From NCBI GenBank assembly GCA_016933195.1, contig JAFGBN010000064.1:1-45920 (forward strand): a DNA stretch of 45,920 nt, given 5' to 3'. Shown here piece by piece: positions 27,716-45,920 of the stretch. Both the position numbers and the translations under genes were made by a program. This stretch comes from Dehalococcoidia bacterium. Its GTDB lineage: Bacteria > Chloroflexota > Dehalococcoidia > GIF9 > AB-539-J10. The number at the start of each line of letters is the position of its first letter. The stretch's first letter is position 1. Under the pieces are notes generated by a model. It saw nothing but the letters and a program-made list of their open reading frames with translations. It was not told the DNA's origin and searched no databases.

Positions 27716-27964
27716 TTCACCATTAACCTCGTCTTTTCAGAAATTGGCAAAAAAAAGAGGGCTACGGTAAAGGACTTCGCAGCGACTCTTCTTTCTCCAC
27801 AGGGTAGAGTGAAACACGAGCAATAAGCATAACAAGATATCACCCCAAAAAGCAAACTTGAGCCAGAGAGATTGTTTAGCAACTTCTTGAGAAGGTGCCT
27901 TTGACAAAGCTAGCCAGATAATTTCAAAGCTATTATGCTAAAGCAAAAATTTGGAGGCTTAAGC

Positions 27965-28309
27965 ATGACAAAGGTGGGATGTAAAGGAACAAACATGGAC
28001 TCTTTCTTTGGCCGCTTCCTTTACGAGCAGAAGGTGTCCCAAAAGCATTTCCTGAGAAGGCTAAACGAGGTCATAGATTGGGATAGGTTTACAAGGAAAC
28101 TTCTTAGCCCCTACAAAGGCAAGGGAGAGATAGGGCAGGCGCCATACAACCCCACTCTTATTCTAAAGGTGCTTCTTCTCTCTTACCTAGGGAACACCTC
28201 AAAAGAATGATAGCGATACTGGTTAATGGCAGTTTGTCCATCGGCTTCTTCCTAGGAACTTGGTGCTGATGAGAAAGCCCCTATCCATTCCACGCTGACT
28301 CTATTGTAA
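27965..28309 (+). pseudogene. Remnant of an IS5/IS1182-type transposase (N-terminal part)
   Basis: From ATG at 27965 (GGAGG upstream; ATG at 27935 is an alternative) the frame gives FFGRFLYEQKVSQKHFLRRL and LNEVIDWDRFTRK, then APYNPTLILKVLLLSYLGN, typical of the DUF772 N-terminal domain of IS5-group transposases. It stops at 28210. Beyond that, shifted frames still show VNGSLSIGFFLG and LGADEKAPIHSTLTLL up to 28309, so frameshifts and a 3' deletion have destroyed it. No terminal inverted repeats were found. The DDE catalytic region is absent. Confidence 0.8.
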
Positions 28310-39090: not shown

Positions 39091-39164
39091 CGGGGTGTAG
39101 CGCAGCCTGGTAGCGCACCTGAATGGGGTTCAGGTGGTCGGAGGTTCAAATCCTCTCACCCCGA
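39091..39164 (+). tRNA. tRNA-Pro (anticodon GGG)
   Basis: Cloverleaf can be drawn by hand: acceptor CGGGGTG/CACCCCG with discriminator A, D arm GCGC/GCGC, anticodon stem CCTGA/TCAGG with loop ATGGGGT (anticodon GGG), variable TGGTC, and T arm GGAGG/CCTCT with TTCAAAT. CCA is not encoded. The part from the anticodon stem to the 3' end is repeated at 45235-45280, marking the gene as an integration site. Confidence 0.95.
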
Positions 39165-39165
39165 C
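39120..39165 (+). repeat. Attachment-site repeat, copy inside tRNA-Pro
   Basis: 46 bases from TGAATGGGGTTCAGG to TCACCCCGAC, identical to 45235-45280. It covers the 3' half of the anticodon arm through the 3' end of the tRNA, as is typical for integrase core sites. Confidence 0.88.
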
Positions 39166-39279
39166 ATTTAAACTGTTAACAGACTCTCCCCTCGATTTGT
39201 TAACAGCCGCACAGAGACAACGACCTTCCTCACACAACTCTCCGCAGCACAAGCTCAACTAAAACTGTCAGATAGGGCT

Positions 39280-40424
39280 TTGGCCAAGAGGCTATGTATT
39301 TCCATTGCCTATCTCTCTTACGTGAAACGAGGGTTGCGGGATATAACACCTGCCTTCATTGAAAAAGCTGCATCTGGTCTTAACTTTTCCGATAGCTTTT
39401 TCGCATATATCTCTATGGAGAGGATGACCAGAAGAAACAGGTTCAATCTCGAAGAGCAAGTGCAGCAATTCTTGATTGCCAAACAGGTGGAAGGAAAATC
39501 GCCAGTCACTTTGAACTTTTACCGTGAGAACCTTGGGCGTTTTTCGTGGTGGGTGCAGCATAATAGAGTTTCTCTCGACATAAGCAAGATACAAGTTCAA
39601 CACCTACGCTCTTTCCTAGCCTATATACAAACTACCCCTAACAGATGGAACGTGGGCTCAACTTCCTCGCAGCACTTGCCTTCAATGGCAACCGTTGACG
39701 TCTACTGGCGTTCGCTTCAGAGTTTTTTCGCCTGGCTAGTCAAAGAAGGTGTAATCGAAGCCAAAGATAGCCCCATGAAGAAGCTGCCGCGTCCCAAGGT
39801 TCCAAAGAAGATAGTAGAAGACATCCCTCTCGACTTAGTCAGGCGAGCTATAGATGAATTTGATGGCAATACCCTTATCGGTGCTCGTAATAGAGCAATT
39901 ATCCTTATGCTTCTCGATACTGGGATAAGGCTTTCGGAGTGTTCTAACTTGACTCTAGCCGACATTAACTTGGACACTGGCCTGATAAGGGTATGGGGCA
40001 AAGGAGGGAAACAAAGGCTGGTTCGATTAGGTGAGATAGCAAGGCAGGCCATGGAGGATTATCTTATCTTGCGCGGCTCTAATACCGGCGACTCTCTATG
40101 GGTCATAGCCACAAGCCTTTCACCAAGTACGGTATCCAGAGCATGATACGCAGACTCAAGAAGCCAGGAGGCAATGTGAGGTGGTCCCCACACACTTTCA
40201 GGAATACCTTCGCTATTAACTACCTCCGAGCTGGTGGTGACCCTTTCACACTACAGATATTCGGTGGATGGGAAGACTTGAAAATGCTACGGCACTATAT
40301 CGCCGCCCTCAAGGTTGAGGACGCCTTCAGTGTTCACCAAAAGGCAAGTCCAGCAAACCTGCTATATTCCTACCTTTCCAACCTGTGCAAAACAGTGTTT
40401 CTTGCCAATCATAGTTCTTGTTAG
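39280..40424 (+). pseudogene. Tyrosine recombinase (integrase) with HTH-like N-terminus, frameshifted
   Basis: The first frame runs to 40146 and carries an XRE-like helix-turn-helix (LSDRALAKRL ... YLSYVKRGLRD, beginning upstream of the TTG at 39280), a SAM-like core-binding domain (VQQFLIAKQVEGKSPVTLNF) and the first catalytic residues: Arg in DTGIRLSE and Lys in GKGGKQR. The rest continues in another frame from about 40100 to 40424: HTFRNTFAINYL (His-x2-Arg), GGWEDLKMLRHYIAA (Trp/His region and nucleophile Tyr). Together they make a full integrase split by one indel near 40100. Without ribosomal frameshifting it is inactive. ATG at 39415 could start a form without the HTH part. Confidence 0.85.
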
Positions 40425-40513
40425 CCTTTGACCTTGCTAGCTTTATATTACCTACAATTTGCCGAGTCTATCTTCAGAAGATGAGAATGAAAAAATCGAA
40501 ATTCTAGGATGCA

Positions 40514-41707
40514 CTATACTACCTCTTTATTCAGAAATTCATTAACCATTTTATCCGAGTATCTATGCAGGTTTGCTAATGAAAATTTCTCTGAATTGTT
40601 TAATGCCTCCCTTTGTAAATTTCGTAGCTTCTCACTGTTATTCATGAGGGTCTCCACTATCTCTTTTAACTCCCTAGCATCACTATATTTCAAAACAGAG
40701 GTTTTTAATTCTTTAGAAACTATGAATTTTTCAGGCGCGATGAAAGGCTTTGCATACTTTATACAATCAGACGTAACACCAGCACCTTTGGTAATAGAGT
40801 ACACTTCATCAAACCCTAAACCCAAAAGTGTGAAGTTTAGTTTAACAGGCGCTATTATAACGTCAGCTTTGCTGAATTTTTCTCTAAACATTGACTCTGG
40901 AATGTATTCTTCAAAATAGAATATATTGTAGCCCTCATTTTTCAGGTTCCTACAACGATTCATAATTTCTTGACCATATTCTCCTTGAGGAGCCCCCAAC
41001 ATATATAGCTCTATCCTCTTATGATAGCGGTGGAAGATTTCCCTAAAAATATCTATAACAGCTAAATAATCTCTTCTTTTTTCTGATATAGTGCCAGGCA
41101 CAATAAATCTGATTTTTTCATCCTCATTAAAAGGCTCGACACACTCATAGGGGAAATTTGGTAACACATATATGTTCTTCTTATAATTAAAATTCCTTGT
41201 GATATATTCTTTGATTGCTTGATACTCTACTATTATTCCATCGTATCTTCTTAGAATCATTTTTCTTATTATTGAACCTGTTATACCGTTTAACATAGGA
41301 GCTAGAAGTCCGTGTCTTCCTACTTCTCTAATGCTTCGAACACGATCTCTTAGAGACCGTGTTGATTTGAACCACCAGTTAGCGTTATAAATCTCTGCTA
41401 TCTTCTTGCACTTTGGTTTGAAAAATAGAAATGGCCAGATTCTAATGGTATTAACAACCAATAAATCAATTCTTTCATTACATATTCTTTCAACCCTTTT
41501 TAGAAATCTTAAATCGCTTTCTTCTTTCCGCTTTATTACCAATTCATATTCACCTATCTCCAATTCATCCTTTATTCGAGCAAATATTGGCTCTGATGTA
41601 AATACTGTCACCTTATTATTCTCTGTATTGAATATTTTGCATGAACCTGCTAGGCCATGATGTGCCTCTATTACTTCCAATATTCCTATCCTTCTCATAC
41701 GTCTCAC
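40514..41707 (-). CDS. Glycosyltransferase-like protein (GT4-like), AT-rich
   Basis: 397 residues from GTG at 41707 (ATG at 41698 is an alternative; neither has a strong ribosome-binding site). Rossmann-like N-terminal part (RIGILEVIEAHHGLAGSCKI), linker with NIYVLPNFPYE, and a second Rossmann part IRFIVPGTISEKRRDYLAVI, then FSKADVIIAPV and KGAGVTSDCIKYAKPFIAPE, like the donor-binding half of GT4/GT-B enzymes. The EX7E motif is not clean. The gene is markedly richer in A and T than its neighbours and is transcribed against the integrase and hydroxylase, consistent with cargo acquired from elsewhere. Confidence 0.7.
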   Translation of the reverse strand: MRRMRRIGILEVIEAHHGLAGSCKIFNTENNKVTVFTSEPIFARIKDELEIGEYELVIKRKEESDLRFLKRVERICNERIDLLVVNTIRIWPFLFFKPKCKKIAEIYNANWWFKSTRSLRDRVRSIREVGRHGLLAPMLNGITGSIIRKMILRRYDGIIVEYQAIKEYITRNFNYKKNIYVLPNFPYECVEPFNEDEKIRFIVPGTISEKRRDYLAVIDIFREIFHRYHKRIELYMLGAPQGEYGQEIMNRCRNLKNEGYNIFYFEEYIPESMFREKFSKADVIIAPVKLNFTLLGLGFDEVYSITKGAGVTSDCIKYAKPFIAPEKFIVSKELKTSVLKYSDARELKEIVETLMNNSEKLRNLQREALNNSEKFSLANLHRYSDKMVNEFLNKEVV

Positions 41708-41970
41708 TACTTTATTGCTTCTAAATTGAGGCTAACCTGATATTATCTTTCACCAATTTTTCTTTTCATGGAAGCTCAGTCCTCAAAGGAATTGAATTCA
41801 ACTTGAATCGTCCTGACGGTTAACATTAAGAGCCATAAACTCACTCCAATTTACTCACTTAGCACGCCTTAATCTGGCCCAAAGAAGCGTAGATTATCAT
41901 CACATCACGATATCAGTCAATAATAATTCAAAAAACAAGACACCGTACCTGTATTGTTCTCTAAGTTCAT
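41708..41970. other. Non-coding, AT-rich spacer
   Basis: Between the glycosyltransferase-like gene and the conserved leader. Short stop-rich frames on both strands and no recognisable repeats, RNA structure or promoter that I can defend. Confidence 0.4.
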
Positions 41971-42149
41971 CTCCTTTTGTCTGACTACATCCGGTATGAG
42001 GCTTGCTTTGCCTCCAGATTGAAGATATAGTTGAGGCAGTAATCAAGAATGCAGGCGTTCTAAGGGACTATGTCGTCGCCCGGTTACACAGCCGCTGGAT
42101 AGCTTTATCCAAGCATGTGACATCAAGTAGTTACAGGAGGATAAACAAG
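41971..42149 (+). repeat. Conserved leader before hydroxylase, copy 1
   Basis: About 180 bases that align, with substitutions but nearly no gaps, to 45549-45726, each ending in AGGAGGATAA plus 4-5 bases then ATG. In this copy one frame is open from a TTG at 42003 (reading QIEDIVEAVIKNAGVLRDYV), but the other copy has stops in that frame, so the block is more likely an untranslated leader or the end of a lost gene. Confidence 0.7.
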
Positions 42150-44630
42150 ATGGTACAAGAAGCAAAGCTAATGCCCAACAACCCCTTTGAGCACGATAAG
42201 TTCATGCCCGAGACATTCAATGTGGTAGGGAAGCAAGGTATGCGCCGCATAGACGGGTACAGGAAAGCGAGCGGAGCAGCAGTTTATACCAAGGATGTAC
42301 TATTGCAGGGAATGCTGTATGCCAAATTTCTCACATGTCCCTATCCCAATGCAAAGATTAAGAGCATGGATACGAGCAAGGCCGAGACATTGCCGGGTGT
42401 GAGAGCTGTTCTCAGATATGATGACCCGGAAATAAAGGGGAAAAAGGCGATAAGTACCAATGGTGGTGAGGAACTTATCCTGGCTGATTCTGCTTACTTC
42501 CAGGGACAGGAAGTAGGGGCTGTAGTGGCTGCAGACACCGAGGATGTAGCTGATAAAGCACTGAAATTAATAGATGTAGAATGGGAGGAGCGTCCATTTG
42601 TCCTGGACGAAGAGGAAGCGCTTAAGCCAGACGCTCCTCTAGCAAGGCCTGAAGAATTACCCAAAAATAATATATTACTACCGGGAAGTGGCCTTACCTG
42701 GATTCCTTCCCTTTTTGAATTAGGAGATGTAGAGAAAGGTTTCAAGGAAGCAGACAAGATAATTGAGTTCGAAGCTAGAAGGCGATATCACGGCTGCGCC
42801 GACGTGGAAACCCCTAATGGTATCACTAAGTGGGAAGGTGACTGGGCTGAGCTCTGGGTGCACCACCAGCATGCATACGAACATAAATGGGCCATGAACA
42901 AATGGTTTGGTACTCCTATGAACAAGGTCAAGATTAATTCCCTTTATAACGGGGCGATGTATGGGGGCTGGAACTGGATATATTACAGCATGATTCCTCA
43001 ATGTGTTAGCGCGATTCTGGCTAAAAGGACTGGCAGGCCTGTGAAGTGGATATTTAACAGAAGAGACGACTTCTACCTCGGGCAAATGGACGTAATGGTG
43101 GCTTATTTCAGGGTGGGATTTAAAAACGATGGAACTATTACCGCAGTGAAAGCGAGAACTGTGTTCGCCAACATTTCACTTCGTGATACCTTGGCGCACC
43201 TTGCCGAGAACACCAGTATTCCCAATCTATATTCCGAGAATGTTACGGTACAGGTCAATAAAGGGCCTGTTACGGCAATTCGATGTGAACAAGCTCCCCC
43301 GGCTCTTGGCATAACCCATGTATTTGACCGTGTAGCTGCTGAGCTGGGAATGGACCCCACCGAGCTCGCGCTGAAAAACGATGGTGCTGAAGGAAAAGAT
43401 ATGGAGTACCTTGCGGAATTCAAGCGTAAGCATGGTTTTCCTGTGAGGGATAGTCTCAAAGAGTGTGTAGAGGCAGGGAAGAAGGCAATGGGGTGGGACG
43501 AGAAGTGGCACGCCCCGGGTACGAAGAGACTTCCCAACGGGAAAATGCACGGCCTGGGCTTTATCTGGGACCATGAGTGGGACGATAACCGAGGAGCAGC
43601 AGTTGCTGGTGTGTTGATTCAACAGGACGGTTCGGTCAGCATCGTAGGTCAGCACTGCGATATAGGAGTTAATGGTGAGAGTGCATACTGCCAGGTCGTT
43701 GCCGAGGAACTGGGAATGCGATACGAAGATGTTGCTATCAGGCAGCAAGACGATGTGCATTTTGCCCTGATGACGCCTGACGGTTCCTGTAACCTGATTA
43801 CGAATGCGTATACCTTGAAGAAAGCTGCCAGGAAAGCAAAGCAAAAGCTGCTTGAATTAGCTACCAGCATTACTCCTGTAATGGAAGAGAGCATTCTGGC
43901 CGCTTTCCCTGACATGAAACGCGAGGACCTGGACGAGAGAGAGAGGGATATTCCAGCCGCTTTCCCGGGCATGAAGCCCGAAGACCTGGACGTCAAGGAC
44001 AGCGTGATTTATGTTAAAGCAGACCCATCAAATAGAAAGACAGTGGCCGAAGTGGTTAAAGATGTGGGGGGAAGTATAACTTTTAAACAGGAAATGGCAG
44101 GGATTCAAAATACACGCCACGAACCTGTCTATGCCTGGGCCTGGCATAGACAAGGAAGGTATGGAACGGAGCCCGGGCGAGAGCGCCTGTGCAGGCAAGC
44201 GCATTTCTGTGAAGTAGAGGTGGACGATGAGACTGGAGAGATTGAAGTAACCAGAGTAGTTAACGTCAATGATGTGGGCAAAGCAATATCTCCCGAGGCA
44301 GTAGCAGGCCAGATGTACGGCGGCACCTACATGGGTGCGGGCAGGAATAAGACCGAGGAGTGTGTCTGGGATGAGCAAACCGGGGTACTGCTTAACGGCG
44401 ATCTTCTAAACTACAAATTCGCCACCATGAATGACGTTGGGCCAATAGATACCATAATTGTAGAGACTGGTATGGGCTATGGCCCTTACGGGTCGGTGGG
44501 GATTGGCGAAAATATTGCCACTGTGGCAACATTTCTGCTTCAGGGCGCCGTATATAATGCTATAGGTAAATGGGTCGACGATTATCCTATCACGCCGGAC
44601 AAAGTTCTCAAAGCTTTAGGAAAAGCATAG
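42150..44630 (+). CDS. Xanthine dehydrogenase/aldehyde oxidase-family molybdenum hydroxylase, large subunit
   Basis: 826 residues from ATG at 42150 with AGGAGGATAAACAAG upstream. Begins with the hammerhead domain (RRIDGYRKASGAAVYTKDV, LPGVRAVLRYDDPEI) and continues with the molybdopterin-binding domains: NGVNGESAYCQVVAEELGM-type region, DVGKAISPEAVAGQMYGGTY and the catalytic base E787 in SVGIGENIAT. Where relatives have a GGGFGGK-like loop this protein has YNGAMYGGWNW. A 57-base tandem duplication lies within it. No FAD or [2Fe-2S] subunit gene is adjacent, so electron partners are unknown. Substrate cannot be inferred; likely hydroxylation of an aromatic or heterocyclic compound. Confidence 0.9.
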   Translation: MVQEAKLMPNNPFEHDKFMPETFNVVGKQGMRRIDGYRKASGAAVYTKDVLLQGMLYAKFLTCPYPNAKIKSMDTSKAETLPGVRAVLRYDDPEIKGKKAISTNGGEELILADSAYFQGQEVGAVVAADTEDVADKALKLIDVEWEERPFVLDEEEALKPDAPLARPEELPKNNILLPGSGLTWIPSLFELGDVEKGFKEADKIIEFEARRRYHGCADVETPNGITKWEGDWAELWVHHQHAYEHKWAMNKWFGTPMNKVKINSLYNGAMYGGWNWIYYSMIPQCVSAILAKRTGRPVKWIFNRRDDFYLGQMDVMVAYFRVGFKNDGTITAVKARTVFANISLRDTLAHLAENTSIPNLYSENVTVQVNKGPVTAIRCEQAPPALGITHVFDRVAAELGMDPTELALKNDGAEGKDMEYLAEFKRKHGFPVRDSLKECVEAGKKAMGWDEKWHAPGTKRLPNGKMHGLGFIWDHEWDDNRGAAVAGVLIQQDGSVSIVGQHCDIGVNGESAYCQVVAEELGMRYEDVAIRQQDDVHFALMTPDGSCNLITNAYTLKKAARKAKQKLLELATSITPVMEESILAAFPDMKREDLDERERDIPAAFPGMKPEDLDVKDSVIYVKADPSNRKTVAEVVKDVGGSITFKQEMAGIQNTRHEPVYAWAWHRQGRYGTEPGRERLCRQAHFCEVEVDDETGEIEVTRVVNVNDVGKAISPEAVAGQMYGGTYMGAGRNKTEECVWDEQTGVLLNGDLLNYKFATMNDVGPIDTIIVETGMGYGPYGSVGIGENIATVATFLLQGAVYNAIGKWVDDYPITPDKVLKALGKA
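43893..44006 (+). repeat. 57-base tandem duplication within the hydroxylase gene
   Basis: Two adjacent 57-base units (43893-43949, 43950-44006) encode ILAAFPDMKREDLDERERD and IPAAFPGMKPEDLDVKDSV. In-frame, moderately diverged, lying in a linker before VIYVKADPSNRKTV. Confidence 0.8.
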
Positions 44631-45234
44631 GAGAAATGAATAGAATAAAGAAAATTGCAGCAATTCCATAGAATTGTTTGAATTATCTGTCTGACCGAGA
44701 CCACACCCATGCGAGGCCAGCATTGGCCTGACAAAAGCAGCCAAACCGCTGCCTGAAACAAACAATAGTTTTGGCTATGAGGCATACGGGTGAAAGAATT
44801 ATGAGATGTAGCTGTGTTTTATCTCCGCTCTTGCAAAATTTTCATGGAGCTATACTCAGTGGGTGAAGTTTGAGGATAGCTTGAAGCTCCATAGCATAAT
44901 AGCAGACTAGGGGATTGTTCTTTTCGCTCTGGCTAATTGCGTAGTCTACACGTCTGTCAAAACCAAGGAAAGCGACCTTGACAATTGGGTATCCGTCTTA
45001 CCTCCCAAGACTTGATTTTGCCACTTTCTGTCAGCGGTACTAAAAGGTAATACTCCTTTCTACGTAAAGGCTCTACACCAGAAAGCAATGGCAAGTATTC
45101 GAGAATTGCTATGGCCTTGTACCTCCTTGGGTTGCCATCAAATTGCCAACCATCTTTGTAGAACAATCCACCGAACCTTTCCTTAATGTCCTGTTCAAGT
45201 TCTTCTGTAAGGTTAACTGGTGAAGCTAATTTAG
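44631..45234. other. Spacer before second tRNA fragment, with a - strand open fragment (44957-45166)
   Basis: On the - strand a frame open from the tRNA fragment (about 45230) to TGA at 44957 reads LEQDIKERFGGLFYKDGWQF and YKAIAILEYLPLLSGVEPLR, with protein-like composition but no ATG or ribosome-binding site. It looks like the 3' part of a gene cut by the integration end. The remainder, 44631-44956, shows nothing I can name. Confidence 0.35.
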
Positions 45235-45280
45235 TGAATGGGGTTCAGGTGGTCGGAGGTTCAAATCCTCTCACCCCGAC
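45235..45280 (+). repeat. Attachment-site repeat, isolated tRNA-Pro fragment
   Basis: Exact copy of 39120-39165. The 5' half of the tRNA is absent here (preceding bases GAAGCTAATTTAG do not fit a D arm), so it is not a functional tRNA but the far end of an integrated segment. Confidence 0.88.
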
Positions 45281-45351
45281 CATAGATTCGCATTCAAAAC
45301 CCCCAGAAAGTGTTAACTGCAAAGAGTTTATCACTGCATTCCCCAAGGAAA

Positions 45352-45545
45352 TTTCCACAAGGCAAGCTCAACCAGGGCTATGGGATAGAGCGTTGGCTGA
45401 GAGACTGGGCATCTACAAGGTTTATTTTTCTCACCTCAAACGAGGATTAAGGAATTAACGCCTAGCTTGGTTGAAAATTTTCGTCTGGTCTTAACTTCTG
45501 TGATTCCTTTTTCGCATATATACCTTTAGAAGAGATGGCCAGAAT
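45352..45545 (+). pseudogene. Remnant of a second integrase N-terminus
   Basis: Aligns with the HTH-like start of the integrase at about 39247-39425: QAQPGLWDRALAERL matches QAQLKLSDRALAKRL, and HLKRGLRN matches YVKRGLRD. A stop follows at 45456-45458, but similarity continues in nucleotides (TCTGGTCTTAACTT, TTTTTCGCATATAT) to about 45540. The rest of the recombinase is missing and the sequence jumps straight into the hydroxylase leader. Confidence 0.75.
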
Positions 45546-45548
45546 GTC

Positions 45549-45726
45549 CCACTTTTGCCAACTAAGCACAGTATAAGGCTTGTTTTCTCTCCAAATTGAA
45601 GATATAGTTTAGGCAGGGATGAAGAATATGGGCGTTTTAAGGAACTATGCTGTCGCCTGATTACACAGCCATCGGGTAGCTTTATCCAAATAGGTGACAT
45701 CGAGTAGGTATAGGAGGATAAGTAAT
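45549..45726 (+). repeat. Conserved leader before hydroxylase, copy 2
   Basis: Counterpart of 41971-42149. Shared strings include TTGAAGATATAGTT, TAGCTTTATCCAA and AGGAGGATAA. Its in-frame TAG early in the block shows that it is not coding in this copy. Confidence 0.7.
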
Positions 45727-45920
45727 ATGGAACAAGAAGTTAAGCTAATGCCCAGCAATCCCTATGAGCACGATAAGTACATGCCTGAAACATTTAACGT
45801 GGTAGGGAAGCGGGGTGTGCGCCGCATAGATGGGTACAGGAAGGCGAGCGGAGAAGCAATATACACCAAAGATATAGATTTTCTAGGGATGCTGTATGCG
45901 AAGTTTCTCAAATGCCCCTA
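45727..45920 (+). CDS. Second molybdenum hydroxylase large subunit, 5' part only (runs off window)
   Basis: 64 codons from ATG at 45727 with AGGAGGATAA upstream. The N-terminus (EHDKYMPETFNVVGKRGVRR, then GYRKASGEAIYTKDI) is clearly a paralogue of the gene at 42150, about three quarters identical at residue level over this short stretch. Open to the window end. It shows that the hydroxylase gene is duplicated in tandem with its leader. Confidence 0.88.
   Translation, partial: MEQEVKLMPSNPYEHDKYMPETFNVVGKRGVRRIDGYRKASGEAIYTKDIDFLGMLYAKFLKCP

Follow-up and report, generated by a model that had tools for sequence, protein, structure and literature searches.

Gene arrangement at the tRNA-Pro(GGG) locus

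The window analyzed here is a complete contig of 45,920 bp (G000:C104), and all positions below are window coordinates. Its sole tRNA gene according to ARAGORN, tRNA-Pro(GGG), is followed by two related units, in which a tRNA 3′ end, the start of a tyrosine integrase gene, a leader and the start of a gene for a molybdenum (Mo) hydroxylase large subunit recur in the same order. We call these units element 1 (unit 1, 39091–45280) and element 2 (unit 2, 45235–45920 and probably contig C78). The features of the region are:

39091–39165, plus strand: tRNA-Pro(GGG), the putative integration target (ARAGORN; Rfam RF00005, 63.1 bits)
39120–39165, plus strand: attachment site (att) core inside the intact tRNA gene, on the left (attL) side; last 46 nt of the tRNA, 46/46 direct repeat of 45235–45280
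39220–39444, plus strand: XRE-like helix-turn-helix (HTH) stretch, in frame with the integrase start (Pfam HTH_3, E = 1.4e-6; open frame 39172–40146)
39280–40146, plus strand: tyrosine integrase, N-terminal and core part (Pfam Phage_integrase, 8e-14, and Phage_int_SAM_4; 39% identity to the integrase of genome G033)
40098–40424, plus strand: tyrosine integrase, C-terminal part in another frame, HxxR and Y present (Pfam Phage_integrase positions 101–169; 44% identity to G033)
40514–41707, minus strand: glycosyltransferase-like gene, cargo of element 1 (Pfam Glyco_transf_4, E = 6e-4, below cut-off; PHROG glycosyltransferase, 2.6e-5; composition)
41994–42149, plus strand: leader of the hydroxylase cassette (80% identity to 45571–45726; AGGAGG just before the ATG at 42150)
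42150–44630, plus strand: stand-alone Mo hydroxylase large subunit of the xanthine dehydrogenase/CoxL superfamily, 826 amino acids, intact (Pfam Ald_Xan_dh_C, MoCoBD_1, MoCoBD_2)
44631–44889, plus strand: non-coding block common to unit 1 and contig C78 (85% identity to C78)
44957–45244, minus strand: 95-codon open frame at the right end of element 1 (from translation; no match in Pfam or PHROG)
45235–45280, plus strand: displaced tRNA-Pro 3′ fragment without the tRNA 5′ half, the presumed att between elements 1 and 2 (46/46 identity)
45333–45544, plus strand: HTH/integrase start of element 2, a pseudogene remnant with the integrase body deleted (69% identity to 39220–39433, with indels and a stop)
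45571–45726, plus strand: leader of element 2, with three in-frame stops (80% identity to 41994–42149)
45727–45920, plus strand: hydroxylase start of element 2, cut by the contig end (78% amino acid identity to unit 1)

The repeated core starts in the anticodon stem and reaches the 3′ end of the tRNA. Its second copy lies 3′ of the tRNA gene on the same strand, and the 29 nt to the left of this copy are unrelated to the tRNA 5′ half (17% match). The distance from core to core is 6,115 bp, and the integrase gene adjoins the tRNA gene, between the two cores. A third copy, for which the first-pass annotation of this sequence had proposed a search, was not found in the assembly, leaving a total of two cores. 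Other matches to the tRNA fragment in the assembly are an intact tRNA-Pro(CGG) gene, an intact tRNA-Pro(TGG) gene and a short match on contig C59 (L006:1500–1534 = G000:C59:8891–8924). The latter is a lone tRNA 3′-half fragment without a full tRNA gene, possibly the att scar of another element.

Element 1 is about 6.1 kb long. Its open reading frames (ORFs) comprise the integrase, the glycosyltransferase-like gene, the hydroxylase and one unmatched ORF. Upstream of 39280 the HTH stretch lacks a canonical start codon, and a single frameshift near 40100 interrupts the integrase. Inspecting the translations by eye, we found the catalytic residues R, K, H, R, H/W and Y legible if both frames are combined; the second-H position is occupied by W. 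The glycosyltransferase-like gene has a G+C content of 34%, compared with ~47% in its surroundings. The hydroxylase is unaccompanied by an iron-sulfur or flavin adenine dinucleotide (FAD) subunit.

In element 2, the integrase remnant runs straight into the leader; the integrase body and the glycosyltransferase gene are missing, as the first-pass annotation had stated, and the remaining integrase start is itself a pseudogene. Only the first 194 bp of the hydroxylase gene lie on the contig, and the break at 45920 is accounted for by its last 53 bp, which are exactly repeated in contig C121. Contig C78 starts ~61 bp further on in gene coordinates and covers hydroxylase residues 86–826, with the remaining 737 codons intact. 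The ~250 bp downstream of the hydroxylase are common to unit 1 and C78, with 85% identity. Since C121 and C78 overlap with 9% divergence, a continuation of C121 on C78 is excluded. C121 instead fits contig C40 with a 1-bp gap, yielding a complete operon for the iron-sulfur, large and FAD subunits. Because C121 pairs with C40 and not with C78, joining C104 to C78 is the most economical solution, and unit 2 probably continues on C78. A right end of element 2 is presumed to exist, the window being the whole contig.

Divergence between the two units

The diverged recurrence of the blocks in the same order, already described in the first-pass annotation, was borne out by pairwise comparison. Beside the core (46/46), identity amounts to 69% in the integrase starts (147/212; 39220–39433 versus 45333–45544), 80% in the leaders (125/156; 41994–42149 versus 45571–45726) and 83% in the hydroxylase starts (161/194; 42150–42343 versus 45727–45920). 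These similarities are well above chance (BLASTN E values of 3e-95 and 6e-28). The unit 1 leader has no in-frame stop, compared with the three in unit 2.

The blocks differ widely in their divergence: 0/46 in the core, 42% between the core and the HTH, 31% in the integrase start, 20% in the leader and 15% in the block downstream of the hydroxylase. The difference between core and integrase start is significant (Fisher p = 4e-7). Had the two units separated in place, a divergence of 18–31% would predict 8–14 changes in the 46 nt, and none was observed. We know of no function of displaced tRNA fragments, nor of selection acting on them. The att between the units therefore appears to be younger than their divergence, which would mean that the elements diverged first and met only afterwards.

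Probable origin of the array

We consider it very probable that this locus is a tandem array, formed by accretion, of two related non-autonomous elements that integrate into a tRNA gene (tDNA), in the order attL, element 1, att, element 2. A tyrosine integrase would recombine the tRNA 3′ part carried by an element with the chromosomal tRNA gene, by which the tRNA would be rebuilt and the old 3′ fragment pushed downstream. Element 2 would have entered first and later lost its integrase body. Element 1, a diverged relative, would then have entered at the rebuilt tRNA, leaving the identical 46-nt att between the elements. Both would carry a cassette of common descent, consisting of the leader, the stand-alone Mo hydroxylase large subunit and the 250 bp downstream. 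New arrivals insert at the rebuilt tRNA, so the tRNA-proximal element 1 should be the younger; it is indeed less decayed than element 2. Element 2 thus presumably arrived before element 1.

Several points weigh against this scenario. The genome is a fragmented metagenome bin of 125 contigs with 5% contamination, and the join across the 46-bp repeat is taken from the assembly. The right boundary of element 2 was not found: there is no core on C78 and there are only the two in the assembly. The frameshift makes present-day activity of the element 1 integrase doubtful. Finally, we recognized no transfer or excision gene among the element 1 ORFs, where a dedicated relaxase search was not made.

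The first-pass annotation had also offered unequal duplication. In this case, an ancestral unit from the tRNA 3′ end to the hydroxylase would have been doubled in place by unequal recombination, followed by divergence and decay of both copies. The like block order in both units fits this idea, and so does the fact that both cassettes have a leader and 250 bp of downstream sequence missing from the operon copy. However, copies of equal age should differ in the core by the ~8–14 changes calculated above, and the divergences of the blocks are unequal. As the core is identical while the flanking blocks differ by 15–42%, a single tandem duplication is disfavored and appears improbable. The identical att core offers a clean means of telling stacked insertions from tandem duplication.

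Alternatively, elements 1 and 2 could be alternative occupants of the tRNA gene in two strains, joined by the assembler via the 46-bp core. Besides the contamination of the bin, it speaks for such a chimera that contigs of related genomes end at the core (G016, G032 and G052) and that contig C104 itself ends inside the 53-bp exact repeat. However, the assembler broke at that repeat and not at the core, which was probably spanned by longer words. Moreover, five relatives (G034, G023, G029, G031 and G289) have an intact tRNA and a displaced core on single contigs, G034 even twice, so such islands and arrays do occur in the family. We therefore rate a chimeric join as improbable, too. Stacked insertion of two related elements remains the preferred explanation.

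tRNA-Pro(GGG) is an integration hotspot in related genomes

Integrase relatives with 35–40% identity (tblastn E ≤ 1e-42) are found immediately 3′ of tRNA-Pro(GGG) in the genomes G033, G016, G028 and G058. A fifth genome of the order, G418, has an integrase of the same family beside this tRNA gene, found with a profile built from that family. Pairwise values are given here, as profile E-values are inflated for the integrases used to build the profile. We found tRNA-Pro(GGG) 3′ fragments without the 5′ half in 13 genomes of the family: that of the window, G034, G023, G031, G029, G033, G030, G388, G289, G417, G016, G011 and G256. G034 and G030 have two such fragments each, and one G034 contig has three cores.

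The repeated insertion at tRNA-Pro put forward in the first-pass annotation is supported by these observations: the 46-nt core is a standard att repeat, five other genomes of the order have integrase relatives beside this tRNA, and displaced fragments are present in 13 genomes of the family. The cargo of the relatives' islands includes a DNA methylase and another integrase (G034), a peptidase (G031) and a clamp-loader-like ATPase near the integrase (G016). No hydroxylase was found in the tRNA-Pro islands of the relatives, because the other family members searched lack the hydroxylase clade. The tRNA-Pro(GGG) site is a hotspot, and the hydroxylase is cargo of the window's genome. A phage origin was rejected, as a search of IMG/VR gave only integrases with 23–25% identity. 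Alongside the ssrA hotspot known from Dehalococcoides, there is now a tRNA-Pro(GGG) hotspot with a tyrosine integrase family in an uncultured bacterial family that probably belongs to Dehalococcoidia.

Comparison with known tandem islands

A displaced 3′ tRNA fragment on the same strand together with a tyrosine integrase beside an intact tRNA is the hallmark of tDNA integration, and the Islander catalog lists 3,919 such islands, among them 125 tandems of two or more (PMC4383910). By the Islander criteria, the locus has an intact tRNA with a downstream 3′ fragment on the same strand, a tyrosine integrase gene between them (39280–40424 in two frames, present but probably inactive) and a core-to-core length of 6,115 bp, within the range of 2–200 kb. 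It also shares the anticodon-centered site (class A) with the tandem islands in the catalog. Every island of those tandems comes with a fragment and an integrase of its own. Here, in contrast, the second member keeps the integrase start only, and its far fragment was not found: the assembly holds no third core and the contig ends at 45920.

The ssrA genomic islands (ssrA-GIs) of Dehalococcoides contain 47 reductive dehalogenase genes in 31 islands (McMurdie et al. 2011; PMC3146451). They resemble the present array in forming multiple tandem islands that are flanked by an RNA gene or by a direct-repeat fragment of it and carry members of a respiratory gene family, and they may come from the same class of bacteria. 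The histories of integration and cargo modules are likewise discordant, and some islands lack the integration module. However, the ssrA-GIs use a transfer-messenger RNA gene as the target, a 20-bp repeat and a serine recombinase (DsiB), in place of tRNA-Pro(GGG), a 46-nt repeat and a tyrosine integrase, and therefore the array does not belong to the ssrA-GIs. Their cargo is rdhA, here it is a Mo hydroxylase subunit in two copies. What the first-pass annotation had proposed for hydroxylases is realized in the ssrA islands for reductive dehalogenase genes.

A further parallel is the tandem accretion of integrative and conjugative elements (ICEs) and cis-mobilizable elements (CIMEs) related to ICESt1 (Pavlovic et al. 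2004, as cited in PMC3146451). According to that citation, site-specific recombination lets related elements accumulate at a single site, and some of them keep their att sites after losing the integrase. Unlike in ICEs, no conjugation genes were seen in element 1. Stacking of foreign genes at tRNA genes is thus well known in bacteria; target, integrase family and cargo differ here from the ssrA islands, and the cargo is unusual.

Hydroxylase paralogs

The genome has seven genes of the hydroxylase clade: those of units 1 and 2, the operon copy on C121/C40, one each on C57 and C85, and two in tandem on C42. The latter (L032:7471–13408) are large-subunit paralogs in direct tandem, 82% identical and unlinked to tRNA-Pro. 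Two of the seven paralogs are tied to tRNA-Pro(GGG) and the other five are unlinked.

In a tree of the N-terminal half, the unit 2 hydroxylase grouped with the operon copy C121 (bootstrap 100), and in a tree of the C-terminal half, unit 1 grouped with the operon copy (bootstrap 91). The tRNA-linked hydroxylases are thus not sisters throughout, yet they have in common the leader and the downstream flank, which the operon copy lacks. The likeliest explanation of this mosaic tree is recombination among the unit 1, unit 2 and operon copies. That the hydroxylase was captured twice, independently, from the operon into tRNA-Pro islands, to which the N-terminal grouping of unit 2 could point, is highly improbable: two such events would not be expected to yield the common leader and downstream block, and the mosaic is better explained by exchange with the operon copy.

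The tRNA-anchored amplification of hydroxylases suggested in the first-pass annotation consequently holds weakly: two paralogs do lie at the tRNA, but the other five do not, the two are not sisters in the N-terminal half and the relatives' islands have other cargo. The absence of further copies and non-sister hydroxylases, named in that annotation as speaking against it, is largely what we found as far as amplification is concerned.

Pairwise ratios of nonsynonymous to synonymous substitutions (dN/dS) among unit 1, unit 2 and the operon copy are 0.12–0.15 over all shared codons; therefore, the orphan subunits have been under selection for most of their divergence. The nearest NCBIfam model to the unit 1 hydroxylase is 4-hydroxybenzoyl-CoA reductase alpha, with a best score of 299.6 and a cut-off of 994.55. 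The protein belongs to the Mo hydroxylase superfamily and stays far below all curated enzyme cut-offs, among them the equivalog cut-offs for 4-hydroxybenzoyl-CoA reductase, CO dehydrogenase and xanthine dehydrogenase.

Partner subunits for the orphan large subunits are presumably supplied by the operon. One might further imagine the tRNA-Pro array as a platform, where related elements deliver diverged stand-alone Mo subunits that would work with the operon-encoded iron-sulfur and FAD subunits while trading sequence with the large subunit of the operon, amounting to a modular diversification of one complex; we consider this unlikely, if conceivable. Should the orphan subunits be active with operon partners, tDNA elements might offer a route to varying a respiratory or catabolic complex.

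Two further details were observed in these genes. Within the unit 1 hydroxylase lies a 57-bp in-frame tandem duplication (43893–44006), which the C78 and C40 copies have as well. In the operon FAD-subunit gene on C40 (L029:4873–7221), the FAD-subunit sequence is interrupted by a large NAD(P)-binding oxidoreductase domain that resembles GltD.

Leader, downstream block and dispersed repeat

The leader was absent from all others of the 100 related genomes searched, and the HTH-integrase start was not found elsewhere in 393 genomes of the class. Leader (20%) and downstream block (15%) are less diverged between the units than the synonymous sites of the gene between them (dS ~0.5–0.9), though both look non-coding and a conserved fold is evident in neither. 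The position of the leader ahead of the large subunit prompted the idea of a 3′ remnant of an iron-sulfur subunit gene; this was rejected, as there was no Pfam support and no similarity to the small-subunit gene of the operon. A structured RNA was rejected as well (no Rfam match; fold z-scores of −1.5 and +0.4 with differing structures). Reading the downstream block as a coding gene was also rejected, as its differences have no codon phase and no frame is open in both copies. Simple scans for promoters and terminators gave no more hits than shuffled sequences did.

The distal part of the downstream block (~44772–44897) is a dispersed repeat with other copies on C82, C28, C84 and C121. The last 14 codons of this ~110-bp repeat (window 44772–44897; L170, L171, L172, L027:11164–11195, L028) are similar to the C-terminus (YTRSVKFEDSLRLY) of the C84 and C82 integrases, which belong to a second integrase family. 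The repeat may be debris of decayed integrative elements. Its copy on C28 lies ~80 bp 3′ of a tRNA-Val gene. On C82 (L170:9411–9950), the frame of the second-family integrase opens with a peptide (QGVVGSSPSRPT) typical of a read-through tRNA 3′ end. ARAGORN found no intact tRNA at this site, which may be another tDNA element with its own att fragment. Elsewhere in the window, a short ORF at 27935–28210 resembles the N-terminus of an IS5-type transposase and, judged by reading, is probably a remnant.

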